This document shows, one piece after another, positions 1,697 to 22,171 of a DNA stretch of 24,041 nt. This DNA comes from a virus. The stretch lies in IMG/VR virus record IMGVR_UViG_3300044730_001913, positions 1 through 24,041 of that record; one strand, 5' to 3'. Position 1 is the first letter of the stretch; each line of letters begins with the position of its first letter. A program made the translations under genes and the position numbers. The notes under the pieces were generated by a model. That model was given only the letters and a program-made list of their open reading frames with translations. It was not told the DNA's origin and searched no databases.

Positions 1697-2944
1697 ATGA
1701 AAATATTTGTACAGATAGCTTCCTACAGAGACCCTGAATTAGTTCCAACCATCAAAAATATGTTGGAAAATGCTAAAAGGCCAAAAAATTTAAGATTTGG
1801 TATTGCGAGACAATTTCAAAAAGATGATGGTTTTGACAACTTAGATGAGTTTTCAAAAGATAAAAGATTTAGAGTTTTAGATATTCCTTACGAAGAATCT
1901 AAAGGTGTTTGTTGGGCAAGAAATTTAACACAACAACTTTACGAAAATGAAGAGTATACTTTACAAATAGACTCTCATATGCGTTTCGCACCTAATTGGG
2001 ATGACGAAATGATTAAGATGATTAAACAACTTCAGAAAAAAGGACACTCTAAACCTTTGTTAACGGGATATGTTTCATCATTTGACCCTGAGAATGACCC
2101 TACAGGTAGGGTTCAGGAACCTTGGAGAATGGTTTTTGATAGATTCATCCCTGAGGGAGCTGTTTTCTTTTTACCCGAAACAATTCCAGGTTGGCAAGAA
2201 TTGAAAGAACCTGTAACCGCAAGATTCTATTCAGCACATTACTGTTTTACCGTTGGAGAATTTTCTAAAGAAGTTCAACACAACCCTGAGTATTATTTTC
2301 ACGGTGAAGAAATTTCAATTGCTGCTCGAGCATACACTTGGGGTTACGATTTATTTCATCCCCACAAACCATTGATTTGGCACGAGTATACACGTAAGGG
2401 AAGAACAAAACAATGGGATGATGACAAACAATGGGTAGATAAAAACAATCATTCACACCTTACAAATAGAAAGTTGTTTGGAATGGATGGAGAAACACAA
2501 GAGGGACACGATGGTCCTTATGGTTTCGGAACTATTAGAACTTTAAGAGATTACGAAAAATACTCAGGATTGTTGTTCGAAAAAAGAGCCGTACAACAAT
2601 ACACTTTGGACAAAAATTATGCACCAAATCCTTACAACTATGTTTCCGAAGATGATTGGAAATTAGATTTTGCTCAAGTATTTAAACATTGTATTGATGT
2701 TGGATATAGTTCTGTTCCTGAAAAAGATTATGATTATTGGGTAGTTGCATTCCACGGACCTGATGATGAAACTATTTTTAGAAAAGATGCCGATAAAAAT
2801 GAAATTGCATCTATGATGAGAGACCCCGATGGATATTGTAAAATTTGGAGAGAATTCCAAACATCAGTTAAACCTAAATATTGGGTTGTTTGGCCCTACT
2901 CAGCATCAAAAGGTTGGTGCGATAGATTAACAGGAAATCTATAA
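1697..2944 (+). CDS. GT60-type polypeptide GlcNAc-transferase-like protein
   Basis: A 415-residue protein resembling the GlcNAc family (Pfam PF11397, CAZy GT60), which includes Dictyostelium Skp1 hydroxyproline GlcNAc-transferase and trypanosome mucin-initiating alpha-GlcNAc-transferases. Visible hallmarks: N-terminal FVQIASYRDPELVPTI, GVCWARN at 70-76, the DxH metal/sugar-nucleotide motif D92-S-H94 in LQIDSHMRF, and HYCFTVGEF followed by FHGEEISIAARA (about 191-212). About 100 residues after position 315 form an extra Trp/Tyr-rich C-terminal part that I do not recognise. It is the first gene of a four-gene operon; its stop overlaps the next start by one base. No signal peptide is present, so it should act in the host cytoplasm. 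The acceptor is unknown; the neighbouring Thr/Pro-rich protein is the obvious candidate. Confidence 0.8.
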   Translation: MKIFVQIASYRDPELVPTIKNMLENAKRPKNLRFGIARQFQKDDGFDNLDEFSKDKRFRVLDIPYEESKGVCWARNLTQQLYENEEYTLQIDSHMRFAPNWDDEMIKMIKQLQKKGHSKPLLTGYVSSFDPENDPTGRVQEPWRMVFDRFIPEGAVFFLPETIPGWQELKEPVTARFYSAHYCFTVGEFSKEVQHNPEYYFHGEEISIAARAYTWGYDLFHPHKPLIWHEYTRKGRTKQWDDDKQWVDKNNHSHLTNRKLFGMDGETQEGHDGPYGFGTIRTLRDYEKYSGLLFEKRAVQQYTLDKNYAPNPYNYVSEDDWKLDFAQVFKHCIDVGYSSVPEKDYDYWVVAFHGPDDETIFRKDADKNEIASMMRDPDGYCKIWREFQTSVKPKYWVVWPYSASKGWCDRLTGNL

Positions 2945-3681
2945 TGGTTTTTAAAGATATACCAAAGTTTGTTATCAATCTCGAAAGGAGACCTGATAGA
3001 TTAGAGTCAACAAAAAAGGAGCTAGACTATCTTGGTTGGGATTTTGAGTTGTTCAAAGCAATTGACAAAAATAGTCACGTTGGTTGTACGTATTCACATA
3101 CGTCAATTTTAAAAATTGCAAAAGAACGGGGTTATAAAGAAGTTTTGATTGTTGAAGATGATTGTACAGTTATGCCTTATGCAAAATCTCTTCTTAACAA
3201 AATTGAAAACGAATGTAAAAATTTAGAATATGCAATATTCAATTTGGCGCCAACTTTAAACCGTCCTGTCAATAGAAGTGAAAATAGTCCACTACTAATT
3301 GATATTTCTAATTTTCCACCAGCAGGTCCTGAACATAGAGGAATTTTTGCAACTAATATGATTTTATATCACGAATCATCATACGATGATGTGATTAAAA
3401 TTGAGGAAAATGAGAATTGGAGATTTTACGCTATTGATGACTATCTATATCAAAAAGTGTATCAGAAAAAACAAAGTTATTGTCCTATACTACCTATCGC
3501 CCCCCAATTAGGGAATGATTGGTCAGATGTGTCACAACAAATGTGTAATAACTTTTACGGACAAACTTACAATTGGAATTTGTACTCGAGAACAAAAATA
3601 CCAACAGAGTTTCTCAATATTAATGAAAATAAAAAATTTAAAGAACAAGGAATTCATAAGGAATTTATATATGAAAATTAA
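2944..3681 (+). CDS. GT25-family glycosyltransferase
   Basis: A 245-residue protein matching the GT25 (LPS beta-1,4-galactosyltransferase-like, Pfam PF01755) pattern: FVINLERRPDRLE at 9-21, VGCTYSHTSILK at 46-57, and the catalytic-site acidic motif EDD at 71-73 in VLIVEDDC. A later AIDDYLYQ (163-170) fits the second acidic motif of the family. It starts in a TAATG overlap with the GT60-type gene, so the two are probably translationally coupled. It likely adds a sugar, perhaps galactose, to a glycan begun by another enzyme; donor and acceptor cannot be read from the sequence. Confidence 0.8.
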   Translation: MVFKDIPKFVINLERRPDRLESTKKELDYLGWDFELFKAIDKNSHVGCTYSHTSILKIAKERGYKEVLIVEDDCTVMPYAKSLLNKIENECKNLEYAIFNLAPTLNRPVNRSENSPLLIDISNFPPAGPEHRGIFATNMILYHESSYDDVIKIEENENWRFYAIDDYLYQKVYQKKQSYCPILPIAPQLGNDWSDVSQQMCNNFYGQTYNWNLYSRTKIPTEFLNINENKKFKEQGIHKEFIYEN

Positions 3682-4552
3682 ATTTATTACCTGTATATAT
3701 GGTAACCTATGGGGTACAGAAATGGGTGGAAGACCATCTAGATTTGGTCATTATATGCACTCATTACTATCACTTTTAAAAATGACTGATGCTGATTTCA
3801 TTTGTTATACATCTGAAACAGAAATTGTAAGACTAAAAGAATATTTTTATGAAGAAAATAATATCTCTGAATCAAAGTTAAAATTTGTTTTATTCGATTT
3901 GAAACAAACAAAATACCAACCGTTACTACAACAATACAAAGACTACGAACAGGCTAAAAAAAGTGATAGATGTTTTGAAATACAATATCAAAAATTTTCT
4001 TGGTTTTGGGATGAAGATAAATCCTACGACTATTATTTTTGGATTGATGCAGGTCTTTCTCACAGTGGGTTAATACCAAACAAGTATCTTTCACAACCTA
4101 ACGGTCCGAGACAGTTTTATGAGAGTCCTTTATTTAATAACACATTTTTAAAAAATCTGTGTGAGTTTTCAGAAAACAAATTTGTTGTTTTTGCTAAAGA
4201 AAATGATAGAAATTTTTGGTCACAGACAGTTGACCCAAAGTGGTACACAAATTATGATAGAATGTTACACGTAATAGGTGGAATGTTTGGTGGTAAACGT
4301 CAGTTGTGGGAAACAATAGTACCACTTTTTGAAGACTATTCTCAAAGGATTATCGAAACTGATAAGAGACCTTTTCCTGAAGAGTTATTTATGACCTTGA
4401 TGTTTTACAATCATCCCGAACTTTTTAAACACAAATATTTTGAAACTTGGTGGTGCAGAGATAACGCTCCAAAGGAAACTCCCGACAGTTATTTTGAACA
4501 AAACAAAAGTTTCTATAAAATTTTAGAAGAATTAAACAATATAAATGAGTAA
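3671..4552 (+). CDS. HtrL/YibB-like (WlaTC-type) glycosyltransferase
   Basis: I chose ATG 3671 (293 residues, MKIKFITCIYGN) because the longer frame from 3515 would lie inside the upstream gene; 3671 leaves an 11-base overlap. The protein resembles the HtrL_YibB family (Pfam PF09612), which includes Campylobacter WlaTC. Seen: YYFWIDAG at 121-128 with a DxG-type acidic site, GGMFGG at 203-208, and PEELFMTLMFYNHPELF (236-252). The same features occur at nearly the same spacing in the N-terminal half of the next gene, so the two are paralogues, probably from a local duplication. Sugar specificity is unknown. Confidence 0.65.
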   Translation: MKIKFITCIYGNLWGTEMGGRPSRFGHYMHSLLSLLKMTDADFICYTSETEIVRLKEYFYEENNISESKLKFVLFDLKQTKYQPLLQQYKDYEQAKKSDRCFEIQYQKFSWFWDEDKSYDYYFWIDAGLSHSGLIPNKYLSQPNGPRQFYESPLFNNTFLKNLCEFSENKFVVFAKENDRNFWSQTVDPKWYTNYDRMLHVIGGMFGGKRQLWETIVPLFEDYSQRIIETDKRPFPEELFMTLMFYNHPELFKHKYFETWWCRDNAPKETPDSYFEQNKSFYKILEELNNINE

Positions 4553-6221
4553 AATAACATTAGTTACTGGTCTTTGGAATATTAGACGGGACGCATTAAC
4601 AGAAGGTTGGTCACGTTCGTACGACCATTATTTACAAAAATTTTCCGAACTCTTAAAATCGGAAAGTAATTTCATAATTTTTGGTGATGAAGAATTAAAA
4701 GATTTTGTTTTTTCTCAACCAAACAGAAATGATGAAAACACTCAATTTATAACAAGACATCAAGATTGGTTTAAAAATGAATTTTATGATAAAATTCAAA
4801 ACATCAGAACTAATCCCGAATGGTACAGTCAATCTGGTTGGTTACCCGAATCAACGCAAGCAAAATTGGATATGTACAACCCCCTTGTTATGTCAAAAAT
4901 GTTTTTACTTCACGATGCTAGAATTTTTGACAAATTTGATTCAACACATATGTTTTGGATTGATGCTGGTATAACCAACACTGTACATTGGGGTTATTTT
5001 ACTCACGATAAAATACAAAATAAATTTGATAAACTATTTCCAAAGTTCGGTTTTGTGGCTTTTCCTTACGATGCTGAAACTGAAATTCACGGGTTTACAT
5101 ATCCAAGAATTAATAGTTATGCTGGTCAAGATGTAAAATTTGTTTGTAGAGGTGGTTTGTTTGGGGGATTAAAAAGTATGATATCGGACGCTAACGGAAT
5201 TTACTATAATTTAATAAGTGAAACCCTTAACAATAATTTGATGGGTACTGAGGAGTCTTTATTCAGTATTATGTTATATAGACACCCTGACTTATTTGAT
5301 TATCACCAAATTGATGGAAATGGTTTAATTTCTACTTTTTGTGAAAATGCAAAAAATGACACTTGTGTAATAAAAAATATTGCGGGTGAAGTTTCATATA
5401 GAAATTTAGATGTTAATAACACAGCACTTTATGTTATAACATTTAACAGTCCAAATCAATTTGAAACTTTAATAAAATCAATGAGTCTATATGATTCAAA
5501 CTTTTTAGAAAAACCAAAAAAATATTTGTTGGATAATTCATCTGATTTAACCACAACCCAAAAATATTCTGAACTTTGTTCCCTACACGGATTTGAACAT
5601 ATTAAAAAAGATAACCTTGGGATTTGCGGAGGAAGACAATGGATTGCTGAACACGCTAAAGAACACGCCTTTGATTTTTATTGGTTTTTTGAGGATGATA
5701 TGTTTTTTTATGTAGGTGAAGATATTTCTTGCAGAAACGGATTTGTTAGGAAGATTAAAAACTTATACGATAAATCTATGAGAATTACTAAAAATTATTC
5801 TTTGGATTTTTTAAAATTGAATTACTCAGAATTTTTTGGTGACAATGGAGTTCAATGGTCTTGGTATAATGTACCACAAAGTGTTAGAGAAGAATTTTGG
5901 CCAGAAAAAAATTCTTTACCTGTACAAGGGCTTGACCCTAATGCTCCGAGAACCAAATTCAACGGGGTACATACTCTTGAAGGAACATCATTTGGAATTG
6001 GTGAAGTATACTATTGTAATTGGCCTCAAGTTGTTACAAAATACGGTAATGAAAAAATGTTCCTAACTACTAAATGGGACAGACCTTTTGAACAAACTTG
6101 GATGAGTTACATTTATCAGGAAGGTAAAAAGGGAAATATAAAATCCGCACTATTGTTTGCAACACCAACTGAACACAATAGGTTTGACCATTATGATGCT
6201 AATTTAAGAAAAGAGTCATAA
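4545..6221 (+). CDS. Two-domain glycosyltransferase: HtrL/YibB-like domain plus GT2-like domain
   Basis: A 558-residue protein overlapping the previous gene by 8 bases. The N-terminal half (about 1-275) is HtrL/YibB-like, with MFWIDAG at 136-142, GGLFGG at 203-208 and GTEESLFSIMLYRHPDLF at 234-251, paralogous to the upstream gene. The C-terminal half (about 295-558) looks like a separate GT-A-type transferase: YVITFNSPNQFETLIKSM resembles the start of GT2-like domains, and FFEDDMFF (381-388) supplies an acidic motif in the expected place. A single chain may add two successive sugars. It is the last gene of the operon; no terminator is visible after it. The HtrL assignment is moderately sure, the second domain is inferred from pattern. 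Confidence 0.65.
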   Translation: MSKITLVTGLWNIRRDALTEGWSRSYDHYLQKFSELLKSESNFIIFGDEELKDFVFSQPNRNDENTQFITRHQDWFKNEFYDKIQNIRTNPEWYSQSGWLPESTQAKLDMYNPLVMSKMFLLHDARIFDKFDSTHMFWIDAGITNTVHWGYFTHDKIQNKFDKLFPKFGFVAFPYDAETEIHGFTYPRINSYAGQDVKFVCRGGLFGGLKSMISDANGIYYNLISETLNNNLMGTEESLFSIMLYRHPDLFDYHQIDGNGLISTFCENAKNDTCVIKNIAGEVSYRNLDVNNTALYVITFNSPNQFETLIKSMSLYDSNFLEKPKKYLLDNSSDLTTTQKYSELCSLHGFEHIKKDNLGICGGRQWIAEHAKEHAFDFYWFFEDDMFFYVGEDISCRNGFVRKIKNLYDKSMRITKNYSLDFLKLNYSEFFGDNGVQWSWYNVPQSVREEFWPEKNSLPVQGLDPNAPRTKFNGVHTLEGTSFGIGEVYYCNWPQVVTKYGNEKMFLTTKWDRPFEQTWMSYIYQEGKKGNIKSALLFATPTEHNRFDHYDANLRKES

Positions 6222-11293: not shown

Positions 11294-12832
11294 TCAACCT
11301 AAATTGTAAATCATCGCGTTTTCGTCAAAAACGTAATTACCCATAACAACATTACCAGTGTTTTCAAAAATCACAACTTTTTTTCGTTGTAAGTTAACAA
11401 ACACCATCCAATCTATGTTCGGGTATTTTACAGTGTCGCCAGCACCTGTTACGACAACTTTACCCTCTGAAGGTATTAGTTCCATAAAACCTTTAACTTG
11501 TGCTTTTTTTGTATTACCACCAATCGTGATTTCCAAATCAATTTTTTTGAATGCGTCTTCTTTAGACCCTAATCGACCAACTTTGTTTACAACAGATTCG
11601 GGTAAATTTACCGAAATAATTTTTTTTGCATAATCTTCGCGGTCTTCACCTATTTGATGTTTTTTTGTTAGAACATCAAAAATATTTTTGAAAATTGCAC
11701 TCTTTGGGTCAAAAATCCTGTCACTATATTTTTCGATATAATTGAGCATTCTTTTTATTTCTTTTTCTTGATTTGCGGGAGTTGTGAAAAAATTGAGTTC
11801 TTCTATATCTTGTGATTTCAAAACTCTATTCATATCTTTTACAAAAAAACAAAGAACTGAAAAATTTGTGTCTAGCTTATTAATAATTGACCTCCCTTTT
11901 TCATCACTTGGAAATATTTCTAATTCATAAATTCCTGACATTTCATCTTTTGTCGCAGGTTTCCAATTACTTTCGAATGTGTCTTTAAGAATTTTTCTTA
12001 TACCGTTGGAATATATGTTTTTTATTGCTTTGTTTTGTATTAACATCCTGTAAAATTCTTTTTCCCCTGATGTACAAAAAGATGACTTAGATTCATTAAT
12101 CAAATGTTTTAGAGATTGTTCCTGAATCAGATTAGATTCGGTTTTCATTTTGTACATATCCTCAACAAATTTCCAGTTTACAACTGTCCAAAAGTTTTTA
12201 ATATATTCATCTCGTCTATTTTTGTATTTTAAATAATAAGCGTGTTCCCAAACGTCCAAACCTAAAAGAGGAAATCCCCCATCTTCAATTACATTCATCA
12301 GCGGATTATCCTGATTCGGTGTCGACATAATTTTGAGTGTCCCCTTTTTGGTCAGAACAACCCAAACCCAACCAGAACCAAATCTTTCGGTTGCTATTTT
12401 GGAAAATTCTTTTTTGAATTTATCTATTGAGGTGAAGTCTTTGATAATTCTTGATTTCATCTCAGGACCTATCTCAATCTCTTCAGGAGACAACATATTC
12501 CAAAACAGCGCGTGGTTGAATGCTCCTCCGGCATTGTTACGAACAGATTTTGGGAATCTAGAAATGTTTCTAATAATCTTTTCTAAATCGTCGTCACCTT
12601 TTCTTTTTTGAATTAATTTGTTGAGTTTGTTGACGTACCCTTTGTAATGTTTGTTATAATGAACATTCATTGTTTCTGGGTCGATAAATCTTTTCAGGGC
12701 TGAATACGAGTAAGGTAATTTTTCAATTCCGATTTTTTTCATTTCGGATAATAAACCTTTCACCTCTTCTTTCTTTTTTTCTTGTAGAATCTCTTTCTCT
12801 ACTTTTTGTATTGATTCTTGTAGATGTTGCAT
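11294..12832 (-). CDS. Mn-type superoxide dismutase domain fused to an uncharacterised C-terminal (possibly nuclease-like) domain
   Basis: A 512-residue protein. Residues 1-34 form a charged helical N-terminus. Residues about 37-228 are a Fe/Mn superoxide dismutase: LPYSYSALKRFIDPETM, metal ligands H58 (VHYNKHY), H107 (FNHALFW), D193 and H197 (GLDVWEHAYYLKYKNRR), plus FGSGWVWVVL. The Gln in PNQDNPL (Q174) and the AGG before FNH point to the Mn subtype. Residues about 245-512 are a separate domain. Within it, D432-L-E434 followed by Q445-V-K447 and a hydrophobic strand (IDWMVFVNL) recall a PD-(D/E)XK nuclease core, but this is inference. Phage SODs are unusual and this fusion is longer than any stand-alone SOD (about 200 residues). 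It lies 18 nt before the gp13-like gene and is preceded by a late-type motif, so it may be packaged or made late. Confidence 0.8.
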   Translation of the reverse strand: MQHLQESIQKVEKEILQEKKKEEVKGLLSEMKKIGIEKLPYSYSALKRFIDPETMNVHYNKHYKGYVNKLNKLIQKRKGDDDLEKIIRNISRFPKSVRNNAGGAFNHALFWNMLSPEEIEIGPEMKSRIIKDFTSIDKFKKEFSKIATERFGSGWVWVVLTKKGTLKIMSTPNQDNPLMNVIEDGGFPLLGLDVWEHAYYLKYKNRRDEYIKNFWTVVNWKFVEDMYKMKTESNLIQEQSLKHLINESKSSFCTSGEKEFYRMLIQNKAIKNIYSNGIRKILKDTFESNWKPATKDEMSGIYELEIFPSDEKGRSIINKLDTNFSVLCFFVKDMNRVLKSQDIEELNFFTTPANQEKEIKRMLNYIEKYSDRIFDPKSAIFKNIFDVLTKKHQIGEDREDYAKKIISVNLPESVVNKVGRLGSKEDAFKKIDLEITIGGNTKKAQVKGFMELIPSEGKVVVTGAGDTVKYPNIDWMVFVNLQRKKVVIFENTGNVVMGNYVFDENAMIYNLG

Positions 12833-20736: not shown

Positions 20737-21225
20737 ATGGCTGATTTATTAATGAAAATGCCCATACCTTACGAACCTAAACGTCAGAATCGTTTTATTC
20801 TAAGGTTTCCTTCCTCTTTAGGAATTAACGAATGGTTTGTAGAAAGCACCTCAAGACCTCACATTATGATTGGCGCTACTGAAATACAATTCCTAAACAC
20901 ATCAACATTTGTTGCGGGTAGATTTAATTGGCAAACGATTAATGTAACGTTCCGAGACCCAATTGGTCCATCTGCATCTCAAGCTCTTATGGAGTGGGTT
21001 CGTCTACACGCCGAATCTGTAACAGGTCGTATGGGATATGCTGCAGGATACAAAAAAGACGTGGACCTCGAAATGTTAGACCCAACTGGTGTTGTTGTTG
21101 AAAAGTGGATTCTTTACGGAACATTCTTAACAGACGTAAACTTCAACCAATTAAGTTACAGTCAGGATGCTTTAGCAACAATCACAGCAACACTCAGAAT
21201 GGACCGCTGTGTTCTTGTTTATTAA
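20737..21225 (+). CDS. 19: Tail tube protein (T4 gp19-like)
   Basis: A 162-residue protein, almost the length of T4 gp19 (163). Seen: PKRQNRFILRFPSSLGI then WFVESTSRPHI near the N-terminus, RFNWQTINVTFRDPIGPSAS in the middle, GYKKDVDLEMLDPTG and LTDVNFNQLSYSQDALATIT at the end, all typical of the tube protein family (Phage_T4_gp19). It forms the inner rigid tube of the tail. A strong terminator follows directly, indicating high expression. Confidence 0.93.
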   Translation: MADLLMKMPIPYEPKRQNRFILRFPSSLGINEWFVESTSRPHIMIGATEIQFLNTSTFVAGRFNWQTINVTFRDPIGPSASQALMEWVRLHAESVTGRMGYAAGYKKDVDLEMLDPTGVVVEKWILYGTFLTDVNFNQLSYSQDALATITATLRMDRCVLVY

Positions 21226-21256: not shown

Positions 21257-21285
21257 AACCGTAGGGCCAATCCCTACGGTTTTTT
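21257..21285 (+). terminator. Rho-independent terminator after the tube gene
   Basis: Ten-bp stem AACCGTAGGG / CCCTACGGTT (21257-21266 with 21272-21281), loop CCAAT, then T to 21285. The next gene starts only 3 nt later. Confidence 0.92.
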
Positions 21286-21288
21286 ATT

Positions 21289-22032
21289 ATGGAAAATAAA
21301 GTTGAAGATTACGGACAAATGAATTTTACTCTACCACACGATGTGGTAACACTTCCAAGTGGGGGTATGTTTTACAAAAATAAAAAAGACTCAATCAAGG
21401 TGGGTTACTTGACAGCATCTGATGAAAACATTTTGTTAGCTGGGGGTCAAGATATGACTCTGAATTTACTGAGAGCAAAAGTATTTGAACCAGGTGTGAG
21501 ACCTGAAGAATTGCTTGAAGGTGATGTAGAGTCAATCCTTATCTTTTTGAGAAATACAGCTTTTGGACCAGAACTAGAATTAAACCTCAAGGACCCTAAA
21601 ACCGACAGAGACTTCAAAACAAACGTTAGACTTGACGAGATTAATATAAAAAGAGGACAAACACCTTCTGAAGATGGAACATTTACTGTTACACTTCCTG
21701 TATCTCAGACTACAGTTAAACTCAAACCATTAAATTACGGTGAAACAATGGATTTGAGTAGACAAATACAATCATACCCTCAAGGTCGTGTGGCACCGAG
21801 AAGAACACTTCGTCTACAGAAAGAAATCCAAAAAATTGGTGAAAATTCTGATAAAGGAGAAATTGCAAAATTTGTTGAGACAATGCCAATTGCTGACTCG
21901 AAATTCATAAGTAAATTTATGAATGATAACGAACCTAGACTCGATATGTCTAGGGTTATTATAGCCCCATCAGGAGAAAAACTTACGGTTAACGTAGGGT
22001 TTGGGGTCGAGTTTTTTCGCCCTTTCTTCTGA
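21289..22032 (+). CDS. 26: Baseplate hub / tape-measure chaperone-like protein (T4 gp26 family)
   Basis: A 247-residue protein resembling the T4_baseplate family (Pfam PF12322, gp26-type): VVTLPSGGMFYKNKKDSIKV and LTASDENILLAGG near the N-terminus and a C-terminal VGFGVEFFRPFF, the usual end of the family. It sits between the tube and tape-measure genes, the place of tape-measure chaperones in many phages. The zero frame stops at TGA 22030-22032, but a longer open +1 frame continues to 22171 (see next entries), so a longer fusion is probable. The start ATG is 3 nt after a strong terminator's T run. Confidence 0.75.
   Translation: MENKVEDYGQMNFTLPHDVVTLPSGGMFYKNKKDSIKVGYLTASDENILLAGGQDMTLNLLRAKVFEPGVRPEELLEGDVESILIFLRNTAFGPELELNLKDPKTDRDFKTNVRLDEINIKRGQTPSEDGTFTVTLPVSQTTVKLKPLNYGETMDLSRQIQSYPQGRVAPRRTLRLQKEIQKIGENSDKGEIAKFVETMPIADSKFISKFMNDNEPRLDMSRVIIAPSGEKLTVNVGFGVEFFRPFF
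22012..22018 (+). other. Probable programmed ribosomal frameshift site (TTTTTTC)
   Basis: The zero frame reads GAG TTT TTT CGC. A Phe tRNA at the second TTT can slip +1 onto TTC and continue with GCC; a -2 slip to the first TTT pair gives the same frame. CGC after the slip is a rare-looking Arg codon here and could cause pausing. A sequencing insertion in the T6 run would look the same. Confidence 0.6.
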
Positions 22033-22171
22033 GTATAGAAAAACACAATTAGACGAATTTTACTATCTGTCCAAGTTGGTTGGAGTTAGTTGGTCTGAGT
22101 TTCAGACTATGCCAATATATTTTAGAAAATATCTTTTGGATAAGTGGGTGGACGAAAACAAACCACAATAA
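22019..22171 (+). CDS. +1-frame extension of the gp26-like protein (gpGT/gp51-like part)
   Basis: From 22019 the +1 frame codes for 50 residues (ALSSEYRKTQLDEFYYLSKL onward) ending ...RKYLLDKWVDENKPQ at TAA 22169-22171. The frame is open only from 21998 and has no useful start codon of its own (an ATG lies 20 residues before the end). The sequence has coding character: aromatic helix, a 'MPIYFRKYLLDKW' segment as in tail assembly chaperone extensions. Fusion length by +1 slip would be about 293 residues. This mirrors the G/GT chaperone frameshift known in many tailed phages and perhaps links gp26- and gp51-like functions. Confidence 0.65.
   Translation, partial: ALSSEYRKTQLDEFYYLSKLVGVSWSEFQTMPIYFRKYLLDKWVDENKPQ

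Follow-up and report, generated by a model that had tools for sequence, protein, structure and literature searches.

The DNA analysed here, a virus sequence of 24,041 nucleotides (IMG/VR record IMGVR_UViG_3300044730_001913, positions 1 to 24,041; hereafter the window), carries a gp26-like gene that is overlapped and followed in the +1 frame by a conserved coding extension. We consider it highly likely (probability about 0.9) that a programmed +1 frameshift in this tail assembly chaperone (TAC) gene yields a short and a long protein from one message. The evidence for the shift consists of conserved +1 coding, the position of the shift and homology, and we infer that it occurs, how efficient it is, that ribosomes stall at CGC and that the products act as chaperones. 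A programmed shift giving a long chaperone form had been suggested in an earlier note on this DNA, and it fits all of the sequence evidence assembled here.

In the mechanism that we propose, the locus would be the tail assembly chaperone gene of a contractile-tail phage of the T4 type. Translation would mostly end at TGA 22030 and give the 247-residue short form (TAC-N), while a minority of ribosomes would stall at the rare CGC codon when their P site holds tRNA-Phe paired to UUU. This tRNA would then re-pair one base forward on UUC and the ribosome would go on in the +1 frame, giving a rarer 293-residue long form (TAC-NC) whose C domain has three helices. If these products act like lambda gpG/gpGT, the tape measure would be coated by many copies of the short form and few of the long, and tube subunits would be recruited by the C domain.

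The chaperone gene, its two frames and its neighbors

The zero frame opens at ATG 21289 and, as the earlier note had read it, encodes a product ending in FFRPFF (in full, GVEFFRPFF). The slippery T-run followed by CGC that was also described there occupies 22012-22017 and the C is base 22018, which puts TTT at codon 243 (22015-22017) and CGC at codon 244 (22018-22020). From GCC 22019 the +1 frame is open as far as TAA 22169-22171, exactly 50 codons, for a predicted long form of 243 + 50 = 293 residues. This protein-like frame, likewise noticed earlier, is conserved in all relatives whose sequence extends across this region. The accompanying statement that it has no start codon holds for ATG and GTG but not for TTG, which is present at 22001.

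Features of the chaperone locus (window coordinates)
Feature	Position	Strand	Details
Tail tube gene, 5' of chaperone gene	20737-21225	+	phrog_4542, E 1.7e-24
Terminator-like hairpin and T-run, ending just 5' of chaperone ATG	21259-21285	+	arms CCGTAGGG/CCCTACGG in the window
Short-form (TAC-N) gene, gp26-like, 247 aa	21289-22032	+	PF12322, phrog_150, AF2 model
Possible 5' element, 6-bp helix, 21964-21969 with 22002-22007	21964-22007	+	CCCC 21965-21968, GGGG 22003-22006
Putative +1 shift site, UUU_CGC	22015-22020	+	P-site Phe UUU to UUC (22016-22018); A-site rare Arg CGC
+1-frame extension, C domain of predicted long form	22019-22171	+	50 codons and TAA
Zero-frame stop TGA, short form	22030-22032	+	place drifts among relatives, shift site stays put
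Tape-measure-position gene, 569 aa	22207-23916	+	position only

The chaperone gene sits between the tail tube gene and the tape-measure-position gene, as is expected of a TAC gene. The earlier note had given it this placement, which stands on the phrog_4542 match for the tube and on position for the 569-residue ORF, since family profile scans matched no tape-measure family to the latter. The equivalent downstream position carries a tape measure annotation in loci L084 and L265. The gp26-like gene itself matched PF12322 T4_baseplate (E 7.6e-7; 29.5 bits, curated cut-off 24.5) and the phrog_150 baseplate hub family (E 4.9e-11). PF12322 is also matched by T4 gp26 (8.8e-64) and T4 gp51 (3.9e-52). 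The family scans returned no sequence match of the window gene to lambda-type chaperones.

For the N domain, the AlphaFold2 model (pLDDT 87.9) had as its two best structural matches among 894 chains the two solved tail assembly chaperones, namely 3klu (YqbN; Z 5.6, rmsd 3.5, 83 aligned) and 2ob9 (HK97 gp13; Z 5.4, rmsd 2.7, 71 aligned), both with Z below 8 and covering residues 128-217 only; the next chain reached Z 3.1. A Foldseek search of the same model against the PDB gave no significant match. On the strength of this model, the resemblance to known tail assembly chaperones appears modest but specific. AlphaFold2 modeled the extension with confidence as three helices (pLDDT 86).

The stem of the hairpin just before the gene occurs among relatives as the variants CCGTAGGG, CCGTAGAG, CCGTAAAG and CCCTGAAG, each with a matching partner. 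Because the stem varies on both sides, we read the hairpin as probably a conserved terminator or attenuator, which would lower the chaperone dose relative to the tube. In Bacillus phage SP-15 a terminator is annotated at the same place before the chaperone gene.

Conservation of the extension and of the putative shift site

A first IMG/VR scan yielded 80 relatives, and all that cover the region carry the +1 extension; L058 and truncated loci end short of it. Further +1 sequences came from GenBank relatives and from a second scan (80 viral contigs), the added members including Microcystis phage Mel-JY01, Streptococcus phage GXN1, SP-15, Listeria phage LIS04 and the huge phage LR756508. Use of GXN1 as a query revealed one further viral contig and no more. 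The isolate Flavobacterium phage immuto (L265) also carries the +1 arrangement. Altogether, the extension was in the +1 frame and joined at the same Phe-Phe hinge in 161/161 informative +1-branch sequences, down to ∼21% identity. This total comprises three later loci (genome contigs and immuto) and 158 scored sequences, among which are the window and its copy L081. A single continuous frame in relatives, which the earlier note had named as the observation that would speak against a shift, was found in none of the 173 scored loci.

In the region after the short-form stop, 22 representative sequences had no stops in the +1 frame, compared with averages of ∼7 and ∼4 in the other frames, and variability by +1 codon position was 0.168/0.091/0.314. 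A coding signature is thus present in exactly the +1 frame, so the extension is not due to chance, and the alignments indicate that purifying selection acts on it in the window clade. The zero frame is also constrained near the shift site: among amino-acid-invariant codons, 3/97 were codon-invariant over codons 1-235 versus 4/10 over codons 236-247, and Arg244 was encoded by CGN in 22/22 sequences versus 20/192 elsewhere, figures that are counts and not independent events because the sequences are related. Conservation of CGY is also partly forced by the +1 protein. The extension had no clear family match in Pfam, PHROG or NCBIfam. DUF6760 was weakly matched by two of the 37 extensions in one alignment (A3; best E 0.006). 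We take this family to be one from contractile injection system clusters, where relatives of the C domain may occur.

The window has GAG TTT TTT CGC in the zero frame ahead of the conserved +1 ORF, in agreement with the UUU_CGN type of +1 site. CGC accounts for 3 of the 7412 codons in the window (0.4 per 1000), in a codon table for which two genes were taken from guessed starts (3669 and 14675), with slight effect only. The site is kept as UUU_CGY in every window-clade locus. Near relatives have GAG or GAC before TTT TTT CGY, L060-L067 have GAT TTC TTT CGC and L085 has GAA TTC TTT CGT. The zero-frame stop is less fixed, L074 being without the window's TGA and stopping two codons later. The Mel-JY01 branch has TTT TTT TGG CC with almost no variation, and its zero-frame stop drifts from two to five codons past TGG. 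L078 and immuto have TTT CTT TGG and L082 has TTT CTA. A slip of UUU to UUC, of UUU to UUU (before UGG) or of CUU to UUU (L078 and immuto) is possible in the lineages seen; L084, with UUU UUU AGU, would require a slip one codon earlier or poor re-pairing. The A-site codons across lineages (CGC/CGU, UGG, UAC and CAC) fit a ribosome stall, itself presumed. Both in the window and in all close relatives the domain is encoded in the +1 frame, which does not agree with a -1 heptamer of the form X_XXY_YYZ.

A search for a downstream stimulatory RNA structure found none (alifold z -0.9 to -1.4). Upstream, the possible helix encloses a loop of 32 nt and ends 7 nt 5' of the slip codon. Its CCCC (codons 226-227) and GGGG (codons 239-240) were invariant in 14 distinct sequences, that of L074 (53% identical) included, and CCCC was invariant although codon 226 alternates between Thr and Ala. 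In the alignment, 97.6% of cells were paired, with one double change, and the shuffle control was not striking; for these last two reasons we treat this candidate element just upstream of the shift site, which is suggestive only, as a lead. A more speculative reading, which we think unlikely, is that the family reversed its shift direction at the same protein hinge and that the +1 shift of this clade is helped by the hairpin re-forming behind the ribosome and pushing it forward. If true, the hairpin would be a 5' element that stimulates +1 shifts at bacterial UUU_CGN sites.

Other routes to the extension

We also considered that the extension might be a separate small gene, translated from TTG 22001 or by reinitiation after the stop as a stand-alone gp51-like protein. 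The TTG exists, and nearly all window-clade members have one 29 nt ahead of the stop; moreover, GenBank annotators gave Mel-JY01 a separate overlapping CDS, and an ATG at or just past the stop is common in related phages that use a -1 shift (78/78 in the P-SSM2-type set). However, ATG, GTG and TTG are all absent from the part of the +1 ORF that precedes the domain in 27/79 Mel-JY01-type loci and in L061, L080 and L264. Conservation extends to the Phe-Phe hinge and the precise slip site, and T4 has the same domain fused in frame, all of which leaves a separate gene only a slim chance of being correct. We judge slimmer still the chance that ribosomes enter this frame by shifting -2 on the T-run, as known for phage Mu (PMC3498833). 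The earlier note had allowed for a +1 or a -2 shift. The +1 reading is workable in all relatives; re-pairing after a -2 shift, permitted by the window's own TTT TTT, is impossible at TTC TTT CGC (L060-L067), TTC TTT CGT (L085), TTT CTT TGG (L078 and immuto) and TTT CTA (L082).

The same broken runs bear on slippage of RNA polymerase, which could put the extension in frame by adding or removing U on a run of 6 T (window clade) or 7 T (Mel-JY01 clade). In several lineages the run is interrupted to TTCTTT or TTTCTTT and the extension is still conserved; in addition, 6 T is short for transcriptional slippage, and we regard this explanation as very improbable. A sequencing error or gene decay that split one continuous frame is practically negligible: a single-base difference would account for one genome alone, but the same layout recurs in divergent clades and independent contigs, where the +1 frame is under selection, and the relatives refute it.

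Relationship to T4 gp26 and gp51 and to known frameshifts

The link to T4 genes 26 and 51 that the earlier note had drawn holds. T4 gp51 consists of a gp26-like domain with a homolog of the extension fused in frame at its C-terminus (residues 206-248). By sequence comparison, then, T4 gp51 corresponds to an in-frame long form and T4 gp26 to the short form, and T4 therefore has the two forms as paralogous genes. Thus, within the same PF12322 family, T4 has two genes and no shift whereas the window phage has one gene and a predicted shift.

In cyanophages and other T4-like phages, among them P-SSM2, S-ShM2, Aeh1 and Vibrio CZ01, a homologous extension follows in the -1 frame after U_UUU_UUC, U_UUU_UUU or U_UUU_UUG. 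The N domain and extension of this -1 branch are homologous to those of the window and in both cases are joined at FF; however, in the -1 branch a U_UUU_UUY site immediately precedes the stop and an extra ATG is often present, whereas the window has the +1 arrangement and lacks such an ATG. In P-SSM2-type contigs, TTTTTTC occurs one codon before the stop in 78/78, and, counted from the first base of the stop, an ATG five bases further on is equally constant (78/78); since all keep an ATG near the stop, a stand-alone product is also possible in these phages. Several -1 records annotate the extension as a separate 'gp51 baseplate hub assembly catalyst'. Small 'gp51' ORFs of this type (L171, 2223-2396; L172, 2223-2405; and others in T4-like records) probably encode the C-terminal part of a gp26 product made by a -1 shift; small cyanophage 'gp51' annotations most likely mark the ends of longer proteins. 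In Aeh1 (L176) and nACB2 (L177) the extension is unannotated. Immuto has an annotated 37-residue hypothetical protein (3152-3262) that is probably an annotation artefact; it falls inside the conserved +1 extension that belongs to the 'baseplate hub subunit' upstream.

A profile built from the +1 extensions alone ranked the -1 extensions first among 601 ORFs; one built from the -1 extensions alone found T4 gp51 at E 2e-8, and hhalign of the +1 and -1 profiles gave 95.6%. Single-sequence hhalign of T4 gp26 and gp51 against the +1 profiles was weak, a gap that is bridged by the -1 extension profiles. In the family tree, a strong branch (100/99) separated the 35 +1 sequences from the main -1 group, which includes T4, although two poorly placed -1 sequences (L088 and L170) fell on the +1 side. 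The +1 label changes twice on the best tree, and at least one change is required by branches that are well supported; we are unsure of the deep order of the tree because of its long branches.

The tail-chaperone shift of the lambda type is general in long-tailed phages, with T4 listed as an exception in a 2016 review (PMC5009743). As in the window, the lambda gpG/gpGT gene lies between tube and tape measure and its long form arises by a shift near the 3' end, but the lambda shift is -1 and that proposed here is +1 at UUU_CGN. T4-like TAC genes were identified by Vladimirov, Gautam and Davidson (2022). As that work is described in papers that cite it, some T4-like phages have a short and a fused long TAC gene (in the PRFect paper, PMC10885494), and it is credited with -1 poly-T sites in T4-like TAC-N genes (PMC12846349). 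Because these were reported in 2022, according to the citing papers, we treat the T4 pair and the -1 branch as prior knowledge. A +1 shift is very likely used for the tail chaperone of the haloarchaeal myovirus HSTV-2 (PMC5009743), a likeness to the window by description. The slip of UUU to UUC with CGN in the A site is shared with influenza A PA-X and plant amalgaviruses, in which the UUU_CGN site has no known 3' element (PMC3498833, PMC5052127, PMC8310308). Those are eukaryotic RNA viruses and unrelated genes, whereas the window comes from a DNA virus of bacteria, and UGG occupies the A site in the Mel-JY01 branch.

The +1 branch, its UUU_CGN and UUU_UGG sites and the reversal of shift direction within one family look new; we found no account of a +1 branch in the T4 chaperone family in the open literature, a search that cannot exclude one. 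The RF2 gene prfB slips CUU to UUU, the same slip that is possible at CUU_UGG in L078 and immuto, but it uses a stop codon and a Shine-Dalgarno element, unlike the window site. One family appears to have three solutions, namely a pair of genes in T4 and shifts of -1 or +1 elsewhere, and therefore offers a natural experiment on the evolution of recoding sites. Its +1 branch would place a bacterial virus at the UUU_CGN site known from PA-X and the plant amalgaviruses. Since immuto is an isolate with the +1 arrangement, the claim is directly testable.

Elsewhere, no tRNA genes were found within the window. On the minus strand, a 512-residue ORF (11294-12832) contains a complete Fe/Mn superoxide dismutase (PF00081, PF02777) in its N-terminal half, the remaining ∼280 residues being without a match, and represents a phage-borne superoxide dismutase fusion. 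A glycosyltransferase-like gene cluster at 1697-6221 (GlcNAc PF11397, GT25 PF01755 and HtrL_YibB PF09612) is adjoined by a Thr/Pro-repeat protein at 384-1622.
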